A DNA stretch of 64,000 nucleotides from Microtetraspora malaysiensis (GTDB lineage: Bacteria; Actinomycetota; Actinomycetes; Streptosporangiales; Streptosporangiaceae): assembly GCF_001528665.1 (NCBI RefSeq), contig NZ_BBYJ01000010.1:186001-250000 (forward strand), in the 5' to 3' direction. Each line of letters begins with the position of its first letter. The first letter of the stretch is position 1. A model generated the notes under the pieces. That model had not been told where the DNA came from, made no database searches, and saw only the letters and a program-made list of their open reading frames with translations. Both the position numbers and the translations under genes were made by a program. Of this stretch, positions 19,332 through 24,615 are shown in pieces.

Positions 19332-19416
19332 CTTCCGTCTAATCTAGAGGAATCCTTCGGCTAGACAGACATAGCTCAACGGGATGGGTCGACACCGGTC
19401 GCCTATGTTGCCGACC

Positions 19417-19899
19417 GTGCTCGATCATGATGGCGACACCCACCTCTACGTGCAGATCGCCGAGATCATCCGGCAGCAGATCCTGCGCGGCGAACTGGCT
19501 CCGGGAAACGCGGTCCCAAGCGAGGCGGCGATCCAGAGTCAGTTCGGCGTGGCGCGCACGACGGCCAGGCGTGCCTTCCACATGCTTCGCGAAGAAGGAC
19601 TCATCTACACGGTTCAAGGCGAGGGCACGTTCGTCGGGCCCCCGGGCGAGGCGCCTCGGGAGGCGCGGAGGACACCGCTCTACCGGCAGATCGCGGATGA
19701 CGTCATCGAGCGCATCCGCCAAGGAGAACTCCGCCCGCGCCGCCCGATCCCGAGCGAGACCACCCTCCTGCAGCAGTACGACGTGGCGCGTGAGACCGTG
19801 CGCAGAGCCATCGCGCTCCTCCGAGAGGAGAAGTGGGTCTACACGGTCCCGCAGCGCGGCAGCTTCGTCTCCCCCGAGGAGAACTGGCCCAAGGATTAG
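19417..19899 (+). CDS. regulator with two tandem GntR winged-helix domains (copy 1)
   Basis: 160 residues from GTG 19417. This start aligns with the GTG of the sister gene (VLDHDG against VLDREG) and has TATGTT 8 bp upstream, allowing a leaderless mRNA; an ATG at 19384 would add 11 residues. Residues about 10-70 are a complete GntR winged helix (IPSE-type turn, ARTTARRAFHMLREEGL, wing VQGEGTFVG). Residues about 80-150 are a second one (LYRQIADDVIERI, ARETVRRAIALLREEKW, wing VPQRGSFVS). No effector domain exists. The two domains could bind both halves of one site, or bridge two. Targets are unknown; the adjacent paralogue is an obvious partner. Confidence 0.85.
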   Translation: MLDHDGDTHLYVQIAEIIRQQILRGELAPGNAVPSEAAIQSQFGVARTTARRAFHMLREEGLIYTVQGEGTFVGPPGEAPREARRTPLYRQIADDVIERIRQGELRPRRPIPSETTLLQQYDVARETVRRAIALLREEKWVYTVPQRGSFVSPEENWPKD

Positions 19900-19918
19900 C
19901 CGAACCGATCAACTACTT

Positions 19919-19943
19919 GTATCGATACGTCTAGTCTTGAAGC
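19919..19943 (+). promoter_or_regulatory. promoter/operator of the second double-GntR gene
   Basis: Perfect 10-bp palindrome GTATCGATAC (19919-19928) overlaps the repeated GATACGTCTAGTC (19924-19936). TAGTCT (19932-19937) is a plausible -10; initiation 7 bp downstream would fall on the GTG at 19944, giving a leaderless mRNA. The -35 is weak, compatible with activator dependence. Confidence 0.5.
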
Positions 19944-20423
19944 GTGCTTGACCGAGAGGGACCGATACCTGTCTACAAGCAGGTCGCTGAGATCATCCGT
20001 CGGCGCATCGATCACGGTGAGCTGAAGGCAGGCGACGCAGTTCCCAGCGAGGTCGAGCTGGAGGCCGAGTACGGCATCGCCCGCATGACCGCTCGGCGGG
20101 TGGCCCGGGAGCTCAGAGAACTCGGCCTCGTGCACACCATCCAGGGCGAGGGAACCTTCGTCGGAGACGACACCGCGCCGCGAAACCACCGCCGCCCCCT
20201 GCTCTACCAGCAGATCGCCGAGGAGATCGCCGAACGCATCCGGCGTGAGGAACTCAGCCCCAATCGGCCGATCCCCAGTGAGAAGGCCCTCATGCGGCAG
20301 CACTCGGTCGCCAAGGCCACCGTCCGGCAGGCCGTCGCGCTTCTCCGCGAGCGGAAGTGGGTCTTCACCGTCCCCTACCGGGGCACGTACGTCTCCCCCC
20401 GCGAGGACTGGCCCCAGGACTGA
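19944..20423 (+). CDS. regulator with two tandem GntR winged-helix domains (copy 2)
   Basis: 159 residues from GTG. Same architecture as the gene at 19417: first winged helix with ARMTARRVARELRELGLVHT and wing IQGEGTFVG, second with LYQQIAEEIAERIRREELSP, AKATVRQAVALLRERKW and wing VPYRGTYVS, ending in the shared SPREDWPQD (SPEENWPKD in copy 1). The paralogues are 45 bp apart and clearly arose by tandem duplication, but have diverged in the recognition helices. No ligand-binding domain. The promoter shares an operator core with copy 1, suggesting cross-regulation. Function unknown. Confidence 0.85.
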   Translation: MLDREGPIPVYKQVAEIIRRRIDHGELKAGDAVPSEVELEAEYGIARMTARRVARELRELGLVHTIQGEGTFVGDDTAPRNHRRPLLYQQIAEEIAERIRREELSPNRPIPSEKALMRQHSVAKATVRQAVALLRERKWVFTVPYRGTYVSPREDWPQD

Positions 20424-20529: not shown

Positions 20530-21132
20530 ATGGTGAGACGGATTGTCCTTCTGCTGGCAATCGTGATCAGCGCGCTGGTGGCAGGGGCCACCGGCGCGTT
20601 CGCGCAACCGAGCCCCAGTCCCACCGGCGCTCACAGTCCGAGCCCGAGCCCCGGCGTGAGCGAACAGGACCAGATGTTCCTCATCAAGGCCCACCAGGGC
20701 AACCTGGCGGAGATCCGGGCGGGAAGGCTGGCGCAGCAAAAGGGGCACACGTCGGCGGTACGCGACCTGGGAACGAGGCTGATCAAGGATCACACCAGGC
20801 TCGACACGAAGCTCCGGCAGGTGGCCAAGGACGTCGGCGTCCAACTGCCCCATGAGCCGAGCAAGCAGCAGCAGGCCCAGCTCAAGGAAGTGAGCGGGCT
20901 GAGCGGCGCCAACTTCGACCACGCCTGGGTCCAGTCGCAGCTGACCGCCCACCGCCAGACCCTGACCCTCATCAACAAGCAGCTGGCGAACGGCAAGTCT
21001 GAGCAGGTCAAGAAGACGGCCCAGGAGGCGAAGCCCGTCATCCAGGAGCACCTGACGCTGCTCAGGAAGGCGGCGGCCACCACAACTCCGCACATGGGCA
21101 CTCCGACCGCGCACCCCACGCCCACCCACTGA
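20530..21132 (+). CDS. exported DUF4142 protein
   Basis: 200 residues. A signal peptide (MVRRIVLLLAIVISALVAG, cleavage near Ala25 in GAFA-QP) is followed by a Ser/Pro-rich linker and a DUF4142 four-helix domain (residues about 45-180: DQMFLIKAHQGNLAEIRAGR, VRDLGTRLIKDHT, ANFDHAWVQSQLTAHRQTLTL). DUF4142 proteins are ferritin-like in fold and exported; roles in envelope stress or metal handling are suggested but not established. A GGGGGATC ribosome site precedes the ATG. The C-terminus is His/Thr/Pro-rich (HMGTPTAHPTPTH), a possible metal-binding tail. Confidence 0.9.
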   Translation: MVRRIVLLLAIVISALVAGATGAFAQPSPSPTGAHSPSPSPGVSEQDQMFLIKAHQGNLAEIRAGRLAQQKGHTSAVRDLGTRLIKDHTRLDTKLRQVAKDVGVQLPHEPSKQQQAQLKEVSGLSGANFDHAWVQSQLTAHRQTLTLINKQLANGKSEQVKKTAQEAKPVIQEHLTLLRKAAATTTPHMGTPTAHPTPTH

Positions 21133-21141
21133 GCGCCCCGT

Positions 21142-21171
21142 CCGGGCACGCCGGCGAACGCCGGGGCCCGG
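21142..21171 (+). terminator. hairpin after the DUF4142 gene
   Basis: Two stacked stems: CCGGGC (21142-21147) / GCCCGG (21166-21171) outside CCGGCG (21151-21156) / CGCCGG (21159-21164), starting 10 bp after the stop codon. Confidence 0.5.
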
Positions 21172-21194
21172 CACAGCCGCCTACGGCGCTCCTC

Positions 21195-21249
21195 CGCTTC
21201 CGAGGTCGCTCTCAGGGAGTCCGCTCCCGCACGGACGACCTCGGAAGCG
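21195..21249. terminator. nested inverted repeat between convergent genes
   Basis: Perfect 14-bp arms CGCTTCCGAGGTCG (21195-21208) and CGACCTCGGAAGCG (21236-21249) enclose a second hairpin GGGAG-TCCG-CTCCC (21215-21228). It lies between the converging DUF4142 and EamA genes and probably serves as a bidirectional terminator. Confidence 0.6.
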
Positions 21250-21318
21250 CACGTCTGGAGAACCGCGGATCAGAGCATCCGGAATGATCGATGCAGCACG
21301 CCGGCTGCGTACGGTCGC

Positions 21319-22281
21319 TCAGGTCCGGTCCGGGCGCCTCGCCCCGAGTCCGCGGCTCACCTGGGTGACCGCCACGCACACCAGTACGGCGAGAGCCGCC
21401 GCGACCGTCGCCCAGCCGAACCGTTCGCCCATCAGGAGCCAGGCCCACAGCAGCGTCAGCAGCGGCTGCGCGAGCTGGACCTGCCCGGTACGGGCGATCC
21501 CGCCCATGGCGAGACCCGCGTACCAGGGGATGAATCCGAGGAACATCGAGACCAGGCCGACGTAGGCCAGCCCGCCCAGCGAGACGGCGTCCGGACTCGG
21601 GTCGGTCGTGAACGCGAGCACGACGGTGACGGGCACGGTGACCGGAGCGGCCACGACCAGCGAGTACGAGATGACGCGCCAGCCAGGGGTCTCCCTGGCC
21701 AACCGCCCTCCCTCGGTGTAACCGGCGGCGGCTCCGACCAGGGCGAGCACCAGGAGCAGATCCGCCACGGCGAAACGGCCGCCGCCGCGGGTGAGGACGA
21801 AGACCGTGATGGAGAGCGCGCCGCCGGCGCAGGCGATCCAGAACAGCGGCCGCGGCCGCTCCCCCGCGCGTAGCACCGCGCCCACCGCCGTCGCCGCGGG
21901 AAGCAGGCCGGTCACGACGGCCGCATGGGCCGTGCTCGCCCCGCCGTGCAAAGCCAGGGCGCTGAACAACGGGAAGCCGAAGACGACGCCCACGGCGATC
22001 ACGAGGTACGACCGCAGATGCCCCCTCGGCGGCAGCAGCGGCGCGCCCGCCATGGCCAGGCAGGTGACGGCCGCCAGGGTGGCGAGACCGGCGCGCGCGA
22101 ACGTGAGGAGGTACGGGTCGAACCCCCGCATCCCGAAGACGGTGCCGGGGAACGAGCCGGAGAACGACACAACGCCGACCAAGGCGAGCACGGTGCCCAA
22201 CCAGGCGCTCCGCCGAACGGCGGCTCCCGCGCGGCTCGGCGCTACTGACGCCGTCTCGATAGCGCTATCGTAATCTCTCAT
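21319..22281 (-). CDS. EamA/DMT-family transporter
   Basis: 320 residues with ten predicted membrane helices in two EamA repeats (GTVLALVGVVSFSGSFPG in the first; SLGGLAYVGLVSMFLGFIPW in the second). DMT-superfamily members export amino acids, drugs or nucleotide sugars. The start ATG at 22281 overlaps the ATG of the divergent MocR-like gene in the tetranucleotide CATG (22279-22282), so both mRNAs must be leaderless if these starts are used. Control by the divergent MocR regulator is very likely. Substrate unknown; an amine or amino acid is plausible given the aminotransferase-like partner. Confidence 0.88.
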   Translation of the reverse strand: MRDYDSAIETASVAPSRAGAAVRRSAWLGTVLALVGVVSFSGSFPGTVFGMRGFDPYLLTFARAGLATLAAVTCLAMAGAPLLPPRGHLRSYLVIAVGVVFGFPLFSALALHGGASTAHAAVVTGLLPAATAVGAVLRAGERPRPLFWIACAGGALSITVFVLTRGGGRFAVADLLLVLALVGAAAGYTEGGRLARETPGWRVISYSLVVAAPVTVPVTVVLAFTTDPSPDAVSLGGLAYVGLVSMFLGFIPWYAGLAMGGIARTGQVQLAQPLLTLLWAWLLMGERFGWATVAAALAVLVCVAVTQVSRGLGARRPDRT

Positions 22282-22301
22282 GAATGACGATAGCAGTATC
22301 G
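22257..22301. promoter_or_regulatory. twin operator and overlapping divergent leaderless promoters
   Basis: Perfect palindrome CGATAGCGCTATCG (22257-22270) and related CGATAGCAGTATCG (22288-22301) lie exactly 31 bp apart, either side of the shared CATG. TATCGT sequences at 22266-22271 (+ strand) and 22287-22292 (- strand) can act as -10 elements for the two divergent starts. This suits a MocR dimer binding repeated half-sites. Confidence 0.7.
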
Positions 22302-23680
22302 CCCGTTTGGCCGCGATCCTGCGCGACGAGACGGAGCGCGCGCGGCCGGGCGATCGGCTGCCGTCCAGCCGGGAGCTGATGCGGCGGCACGGTGTCAGCC
22401 CGGTGACCGTCTCCCGCGCCATCGCGCAGCTCAGCGCGGAGGGCCGGGTCGTGACCAGGCCGGGCAGCGGAGCGTTCGTGGCCCCGGCGCGCGGGCGCGC
22501 GGCCGAGGCCCTCGACCTCTCCTGGCAGACCGTGACGCTCGACGACCGTATGGTCGATGACTCCGCCGTCTCCGGGCTCCTTGCCCGGCCGGCCGACGGA
22601 GTGATCCCGTTGACCGGCGGATATCTACCTCCCGACCTCCGACCGCTTTCGGCCCTGTCCGCCGCGGCCGCCCGTGCCGTACGACGGCCGGAGTCGTGGT
22701 CGCTACCTCCCCTCAACGGCGACCCGGGGCTGCGGCGATGGTTCGCGAGCGAGGCGGGCGGCACGGCCACGCCGGACGACGTGCTCGTGGTCAGCGGCGG
22801 CCAGGCCGGGCTCACCCACGCCCTGCGCGCGCTGGCCGCTCCGGGCAGGCCCGTCCTCGTGGAGACCCCCACGTACCCGGGGGCGCTGGCGGCGGCCAAG
22901 GCCGCCGGGCTACGTGCGACCGCCGTCCCGGTCGACCGGGACGGCGTACGGCCCGACCTGCTGGCCGAGGCGTTCGCCGTCACCGGGGCGCGGGTCTTCC
23001 TCTGCCAGCCCACGCTGCACAACCCCACCGGCGCGACTCTCCCTCTCGAACGCAGGGAGCAGGTGCTCGCGGTCGCGCGGGCGGCGGGTGCGTTCGTCAT
23101 CGAGGACGACTACGCCCGCTATCTCGGGGCCGACCCGACCCCGCCCTCGCTCGGCTCGATGGACCCGAACGGCACGGTCGTCCACATCATCTCGCTGAGC
23201 AAGATCTCGGCGCCGAGCATGCGGGTGGCGGGGGTCATCGCCCGCGGCCCGGCGGCGCACCGCCTGCGGGCGAGCCAGGTGGTCGAGTCGTTCTTCGTCG
23301 CGCGGCCGCTGCAGGAGGCGGCGCTGGAGTTCGTCAGCTCACCGGCATGGCGGCGTCATCTCGCCGCCGTACGACAGGAGATCCTGGTGCGGCAGGGGGC
23401 GCTGCTCTCCGGTCTGGCCCGGTATGTGCCGCAGGCCGAGGTCGAACTCCGGCCTCACGGAGGGTTCCACGTCTGGGTGCGCCTCCCCCAGGGCACGGAC
23501 GAGGCGGCGGTCGTCGAGGCCGCGCAGCGCAAGGGGGTGCTGGTCAGCCCCGGCCGCATCTATTACCCGTCAGAACCTCCCGGACCGCGCATCAGACTCA
23601 CCCACATCGCCTCGTCGAGCGTCGCGGAGCTGGACGAGGGCGTGCGCCGCCTGGGCGCCGCGTTCCAGGACACACGCTGA
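22280..23680 (+). CDS. MocR-type regulator (GntR domain fused to aminotransferase-like domain)
   Basis: 466 residues. Residues 1-75 are a GntR winged helix (LPSSRELMRRHGVSPVTVSRAIA, wing RPGSGAFVAP). Residues about 105-466 are a fold-type I aminotransferase domain with the PLP motifs HNPTGATLP, IEDDYARYLG and the Schiff-base lysine in IISLSKISAPSMRVAG. MocR proteins use PLP or PLP-amino acid adducts as signals; PdxR and GabR are examples. The start ATG overlaps that of the divergent EamA transporter. Two CGATAG palindromes flank the starts, one inside its own first codons. Confidence 0.92.
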   Translation: MNDDSSIARLAAILRDETERARPGDRLPSSRELMRRHGVSPVTVSRAIAQLSAEGRVVTRPGSGAFVAPARGRAAEALDLSWQTVTLDDRMVDDSAVSGLLARPADGVIPLTGGYLPPDLRPLSALSAAAARAVRRPESWSLPPLNGDPGLRRWFASEAGGTATPDDVLVVSGGQAGLTHALRALAAPGRPVLVETPTYPGALAAAKAAGLRATAVPVDRDGVRPDLLAEAFAVTGARVFLCQPTLHNPTGATLPLERREQVLAVARAAGAFVIEDDYARYLGADPTPPSLGSMDPNGTVVHIISLSKISAPSMRVAGVIARGPAAHRLRASQVVESFFVARPLQEAALEFVSSPAWRRHLAAVRQEILVRQGALLSGLARYVPQAEVELRPHGGFHVWVRLPQGTDEAAVVEAAQRKGVLVSPGRIYYPSEPPGPRIRLTHIASSSVAELDEGVRRLGAAFQDTR

Positions 23681-23883
23681 TCGAACGGAAGCGCCCCCGG
23701 CAGGCGAACGCCGCCAGGCCGCCCGCGTCGACCGGCACGGCGTTTCTGCAACCGCACGTCATCACCTCGGGCGGCGCTGAGCCCGGTCTGCATCCGGAAC
23801 ACAGCCGCGGCCGGGCCGGGGACGGTGCGGTCATTTCCCCGTCTGCGCCTCCCATACAGTGGTCGCGGGAGGGGATCACGCAG

Positions 23884-24615
23884 ATGACAGGCCCCGCGGA
23901 GCTGCTTCGCGATTTCGTGAACACCTACGACGTCGAGTCGGACGTCGACGATCTCGCGTCACCGGCCGAGCTGACCGTATGGCTACAGGAACGCGACCTG
24001 ATCCAGGACACGGATCGCGCGGCGGACGACGACCTCGTCCTCGCCGTCCGGCTGCGTGAGGGCCTCCGTGAAGCGTTGCGCCGAAACCACGACGCGACGC
24101 CGTACGAGATCGGTGCGGGACTGGAAGCGGCCCTGGCGACGTTCCCGCTGCGGGTGACGCTGGTGGGAGGCGTGCCCACTCTGGAGCCGGCGGCGTACGT
24201 CCCGCGCGGTGGTCCGGGATCATCGGGAACGCTCGGGCCGTCCGGCGTGCCAGGCGATGCCGACACAGGGTGTGCCGCCGGCACGTGGGGAACGGCCGGC
24301 CTCTCGGAAATGCCCGGCTCCCACGACTCGGCCGCCTCCAGTACGCCGGGGCCCTCCGGCGCCCCGGCGGTCTCCTCGGAGGGTGGGGTGGGCGCGGGCC
24401 TCGCCCGGATCGTCGCCGCGATCCCCGCCGCCCACGCCGAGGGGATGTGGCCCCGACTGAAGGTGTGCGCGGAGAGCACGTGTCAGTGGGCCTTCATAGA
24501 CTCTTCCAAGAACCGCTCCCGATCCTGGTGTTCCATGCGGGTGTGTGGAAACCGCACAAAAACTCGGGCATATCGGGCACGACGCCAGACGGACGGTTCA
24601 TCTCGCATCTCCTGA
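23884..24615 (+). CDS. CGNR zinc-finger / ABATE-domain protein with a low-complexity insertion
   Basis: 243 residues from the ATG at 23884 after GGGAGGGG. The N-terminal ABATE-like domain (LLRDFVNTYDVESDVDDLASP, DLVLAVRLREGLREALRRN) and the C-terminal CGNR zinc finger (RLKVCAESTCQWAFIDSSKN, WCSMRVCGNRTKTRAYRARR) are both complete. CGNR proteins are putative stress-related DNA-binding regulators. Residues about 108-165 are an unusual Gly/Ser/Pro/Ala-rich spacer (GPGSSGTLGPSGVPGDADTG and onwards) where most relatives have only a short linker. Target genes unknown. Confidence 0.85.
   Translation: MTGPAELLRDFVNTYDVESDVDDLASPAELTVWLQERDLIQDTDRAADDDLVLAVRLREGLREALRRNHDATPYEIGAGLEAALATFPLRVTLVGGVPTLEPAAYVPRGGPGSSGTLGPSGVPGDADTGCAAGTWGTAGLSEMPGSHDSAASSTPGPSGAPAVSSEGGVGAGLARIVAAIPAAHAEGMWPRLKVCAESTCQWAFIDSSKNRSRSWCSMRVCGNRTKTRAYRARRQTDGSSRIS

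Follow-up and report, generated by a model that had tools for sequence, protein, structure and literature searches.

How can two divergent genes be controlled when no DNA lies between them? Divergent genes that overlap are strongly under-represented in prokaryotes, a shortage ascribed to the regulatory DNA needed upstream of both (PMC2174442). The question is raised by a locus in the window, the 64,000-nucleotide stretch of Microtetraspora malaysiensis DNA analysed here. A previous inspection of the DNA letters and open reading frames (the sequence-only reading) had placed the start codons of a transporter gene and of a regulator gene in one CATG, and the ORFs confirmed this arrangement:

eamA, 21319..22281, minus strand: EamA/DMT-family transporter of 320 aa (PF00892), ATG with its A at 22281.
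mocR, 22280..23680, plus strand: regulator of 466 aa with a GntR winged helix-turn-helix (wHTH) and an aminotransferase fold (PF00392, PF00155), ATG at 22280.
CATG with both start codons, 22279..22282, both strands: invariant in 151/151 related loci.

In the regulator, Pfam matches to PF00392 (7.1e-12) and PF00155 (Aminotran_1_2, aminotransferase I/II; 5.9e-25) lie in a single protein, with the N-terminal GntR wHTH fused to a fold-type-I aminotransferase-like domain, as in the MocR subfamily. Its putative PLP lysine is Lys308 in SLSK, an S-[ST]-K motif that was matched in 144/151 loci; the remaining seven show SLTK or SLSK on inspection. PLP binding by this MocR rests on homology, namely the Pfam domains and the Lys308 motif. 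The best NCBIfam model is PdxR (NF052282), at 239.6 bits against a curated cutoff of 320, and the PdxR identity was therefore not assigned. No RNA families were found within positions 21000-24000 of the window. Further away, at 19384-20423, inspection of the translations by eye suggests that each of two adjacent ORFs (171 and 159 aa) has a pair of GntR-like wHTH repeats but lacks an effector domain.

The shared CATG is a fixed feature of related loci. A search returned 80 of them, mostly from Streptosporangiaceae and relatives, Actinomadura, Actinoallomurus and Streptomyces; this set is biased toward a conserved N-terminus, since MNDDSSIA was among the search peptides. Together with the window, the CATG is present in 81/81 sequences, and conserved blocks from -40 to +21 far exceed the upstream flank in conservation. 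The full set of 151 distinct loci, all of which keep the CATG, was partly gathered with a DNA pattern containing the hexamers described below. Because start-site assignment in that set used the motif, the unbiased count comes from a search with the whole MocR protein against 297 Actinomycetes genomes (E <= 1e-70), which gave 89 matches in 84 genomes, all 89 with the shared CATG start. Eighty of the 89 coincide with the full DNA motif, and the other nine, read individually, also have a CATG start common to MocR and EamA (9/9). The DNA motif occurs in 110/395 genomes of the class, and a reversed control pattern in 0/395. One pattern match without a MocR locus (L101) was left out. As the loci are related, their counts are non-independent events and were not turned into a combined probability. 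In the same phylum and outside the class, locus L157 (genome G649) has the full motif, with 49% identity for MocR and 46% for EamA.

A TANNNT hexamer lies on each side of the CATG, inside the opposite gene:

Putative mocR -10 TATCGT (TANNNT), 22266..22271, plus strand: within eamA codons 4-6; its last T precedes the A of the ATG by 9 bases.
Putative eamA -10 TATCGT (TANNNT), 22287..22292, minus strand: within mocR codons 3-5; its last T precedes the A of the ATG by 6 bases.

The two facing elements are separated by 15 bp. TANNNT is directed towards the CATG at fixed spacing in 151/151 loci on the eamA side and in 146/151 on the mocR side, and the last T of the mocR hexamer is invariant (151/151). 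Fairer support comes from the 81 sequences gathered free of the pattern, because the pattern used for the rest of the set contains the hexamers; in these 81, the TA and the final T are invariant in both hexamers. Mycobacterial promoters have a -10 TANNNT centred 7-12 bp upstream of the transcription start and no conserved -35 (PMC3898074). At this locus, no -35 consensus was evident by eye, and a Shine-Dalgarno-like tetramer was found upstream of either start in 0/151 loci. Both genes thus combine a putative TANNNT -10 just upstream of the start codon with the lack of a Shine-Dalgarno sequence, the profile of leaderless actinobacterial genes. The simplest reading of the hexamers is a pair of leaderless promoters placed face to face; the 9 bases between the mocR hexamer and its ATG are long for a strictly leaderless start. 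The overlap of the start codons had been taken to forbid any leader with a ribosome site. That conclusion fits the lack of Shine-Dalgarno-like tetramers, but the logic behind it was wrong: a transcript starting within the opposite gene would still have a leader, so the CATG overlap alone does not exclude one.

The design is rare in its own genome. A whole-genome pattern search of the 8.8-Mb sequence found the exact geometry TANNNT-N7-CATG-N4-ANNNTA in two places, and spacings of 4/4, 5/4 and 5/5 gave no matches. The second place was rejected as a divergon of the same design: it is a chance match, with only a 6-aa ORF on one side. Among the other MocR paralogues of the genome no CATG shared with a long ORF was seen, a weak negative given that starts and HTH were parsed for a minority of them.

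The CATG is flanked by twin palindromes, as the sequence-only reading had described, and a third box lies further upstream of mocR:

P1 CGATAGCGCTATCG, 22257..22270: perfect 14-bp palindrome with boxes GRTAGC and GCTAYC; putative MocR operator.
P2 CGATAGCAGTATCG, 22288..22301: imperfect palindrome GATAGC/AGTATC; putative MocR operator.
Third upstream box GCTAYC (here GCTACT), 22241..22246, plus strand: the matching box of P1 is 23 bp away.

P2 equals P1 at 12/14 positions, and the two lie 31 bp apart (start to start). One palindrome had been thought to lie in coding sequence; in fact both do, P1 encoding eamA codons 4-9 and overlapping the putative mocR -10, and P2 encoding mocR codons 3-8 and overlapping the putative eamA -10. 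Chance palindromes were ruled out, since both sites are conserved and the joint P1/P2 pattern has exact matches at these two sites alone in the genome. A regulator divergent from its neighbour, with repeated operator-like boxes, is the layout of a MocR divergon. Conservation strongly supports the shared starts, the leaderless-type promoters and the paired putative operators.

The boxes differ between lineages. In clade A (MocR 52-100% identical to that of the window), a GCTAYC-like box stands at -39 in 90/97 loci, and the equal box at -16 is 23 bp away. Clade B (MocR below 50% identity) has a GATAGC-like box at -45 instead (23/31 loci), separated by 23 bp from the GRTAGC at -22. The five loci of clade C carry GCTTYC at both -39 and -16, and their MocR has SALT where the recognition helix begins, the other loci having [SG]PxT. 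The boxes thus seem to vary in concert, both among themselves and with MocR, although clade C may be near to a single event. A group of diverged MocR-EamA copies (L142-L145, L140) has GCGCTTYCC boxes and retains the CATG; several of these show an apparent inverted GGAAGCGC copy within early mocR codons.

These patterns bear on whether MocR itself would bind the palindromes. Another regulator could do so, MocR being a mere neighbour with targets elsewhere, and the boxes do lack the TGT/TGG group usual in MocR motifs (PMC5320631). Such an arrangement is improbable given that the motif coincides with 80/89 matches of this MocR clade and that the boxes differ together with the recognition-helix motif. 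The boxes also persist where another gene takes the divergent position (L131, L091-L109), and the exact sites occur in their own genome at this locus only, as a local regulator predicts.

The first codons of both genes carry a second signal. The residue at mocR codon 3 can be any of seven (D/N/E/Q/H/Y/K) and that at eamA codon 4 likewise (K/D/Q/E/N/H/Y), yet the middle base of each codon is A in 151/151 loci. Read on the other strand, each of these invariant bases is the T that ends the TANNNT of the opposite gene. They lie beyond the palindromes by a single position, and the corresponding bases of the outward-facing boxes (-39, -22) vary, so a -10 element explains them better than an operator does. 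Rare codons are also fixed: GAT at mocR codon 4 (119/119, against 8% elsewhere in the genes), AGT at mocR codon 6 (115/131, against a background of 2.5%) and GCT at eamA codon 7 (143/148, against 2.5%). Judged by these codon patterns, the constraint on the N-terminal codons is on the DNA and not on the protein.

The same bases help to decide what the hexamers are. They might be mere parts of extended MocR boxes, with the true promoters further upstream inside the opposite genes and short antisense leaders. The coincidence of the hexamers with the operator boxes (GCTANNNT) would agree with this, as would clade C, in which the mocR-side hexamer reads TTTCCT/TTCCCT and loses its A as the boxes change. 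We nevertheless regard it as unlikely, because the last hexamer T is invariant on the CATG-facing boxes only, varying on the outward ones (-39, -22), because clade C retains the CATG and the eamA-side TATCNT despite its altered boxes, and because there is no ribosome site for any leader to present. If the hexamers are -10 elements of leaderless promoters, as we prefer, the mocR promoter of clade C, which has no TANNNT, would be weaker or lie elsewhere.

The sequence-only reading had also staked itself on neither gene starting at downstream codons. That the CATG overlap arose by chance, or that the starts are misassigned and translation begins further in, seems scarcely credible. In the window, an in-frame TTG near eamA codon 27 has a GGAG, noted by eye, ~7 nt ahead of it. 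This TTG is unconserved, however, homologous EamA N-termini commonly reading WRG where the window has WLG, and the candidate downstream TTG of mocR is unconserved as well. The CATG in 151/151 loci, the fixed rare codons and the NAN pattern of the DNA-constrained N-terminal codons all argue for the shared starts.

The locus is therefore probably a MocR divergon without a spacer, in which two leaderless promoters face and overlap each other and have their -10 elements at the operator boxes. The geometry and the constraint are read directly from the loci, whereas the transcription starts, MocR binding, the ligand and the sign of regulation are inferred. Each gene would be read from its own mRNA, leaderless or with a leader of 0-3 nt. 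Because the putative -10s face each other 15 bp apart, with polymerase footprints that would overlap almost completely, polymerase binding would be mutually exclusive, as the sequence-only reading had proposed: the promoters would overlap almost entirely, RNA polymerase would occupy one at a time, and elongation from either would traverse the other. MocR could block both promoters, since the -10 elements coincide with operator boxes; bound to P1 it would block the mocR -10, its own promoter, and bound to P2 the eamA -10. A PLP-bound amino compound would shift MocR between box arrangements, so that eamA is released or activated while mocR would remain autorepressed. PdxR shows a PLP-dependent switch of preference between direct and inverted repeats (PMC5320631). 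EamA would be the probable exporter of the amino compound.

The start module is also joined to genes other than eamA. In locus L131 (353-1588), the module and its N-terminal codons (MRDENSAT) run into a class-V aminotransferase, not EamA; the genome carrying it (G357) also has a second copy of the module with EamA (L132). In 20 loci a minus-strand mini-ORF of 21-59 aa starts from the CATG, and its stop shares 4 or 8 nt with the start that follows. In one family of 18 loci (f17; L091-L100, L102-L109), the minus-strand ORF from the CATG has just 27-59 aa and is followed by a predicted membrane protein of 42-111 aa, whose start overlaps the stop of the ORF by 4 or 8 nt. This microprotein is conserved, predicted to be single-pass, and carries the motif GPD[TS]RDxx[YF]; it has no Pfam match above cutoff. 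In two further loci (L065, L066), the end of a 21-aa mini-ORF and the start of EamA overlap in GTGA. These stop-start overlaps are as expected for translational coupling, which suggests that the CATG is a genuine translation start. It may be, and we propose this tentatively, that an ancient and portable start module of ~65 bp, contained entirely in codons of two genes, serves as a one-polymerase-at-a-time switch. The CATG and promoter geometry would then have been kept across Actinomycetota families, with exchange of the operator sequence and of the gene under control, be it a transporter, an aminotransferase, or a mini-ORF together with a membrane microprotein.

The mocR-eamA pair appears to meet the need for regulatory DNA without any upstream DNA, in a geometry retained over many families. 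As a minimal natural system, it could be used to test whether two leaderless promoters facing each other across a single start site are mutually exclusive, and whether a MocR dimer can switch between the two. It also shows that the N-terminal codons of two proteins can be fixed through DNA function and not protein function.

Several elements of the design are known: MocR divergons, facing overlapping promoters (scbA-scbR) and exporter divergons with a leaderless start (lysG-lysE). In the open-access literature, no report was found of a divergon whose two starts share one CATG and whose elements are all coding, nor any relevant paper that treats leaderless mRNA in divergent genes whose start codons overlap. 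The M. tuberculosis lysG-lysE pair (PMC5648196) likewise combines a divergent regulator and exporter gene with overlapping promoters, one leaderless lysE transcript and an inverted repeat (GCTAAT/ATTAGC). It differs in its LysR-type regulator and its 108-bp intergenic region, where the promoters overlap in the spacer and not in coding sequence. The scbA-scbR genes of Streptomyces coelicolor (PMC7384680) are also divergent with facing, overlapping promoters, and transcriptional interference has been proposed there. They overlap by 53 bp, with a proposed antisense RNA, whereas the mocR and eamA mRNAs would overlap by ~2-8 nt, so little antisense pairing is expected.

The closest relatives are the MocR-TF divergons (GabR, PdxR, TauR and others; Suvorova and Rodionov, PMC5320631), in which a GntR-aminotransferase regulator is likewise divergent from its target. 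Their motifs commonly contain two to four boxes, repeated as here; autorepression is common, and targets include DMT transporters (PdxQ), comparable to EamA. MocR regulators linked to membrane-protein genes have also been described (Milano et al., PMC4944035). The four-box order -> <- -> <- seen here is absent from Table 2 of PMC5320631, and the box consensus is without the TGT/TGG group present in most MocR motifs. Compared with the divergons described there, mocR-eamA stands apart in its zero intergenic space, its cis elements all in coding sequence, its leaderless-type promoters and its fixed CATG.
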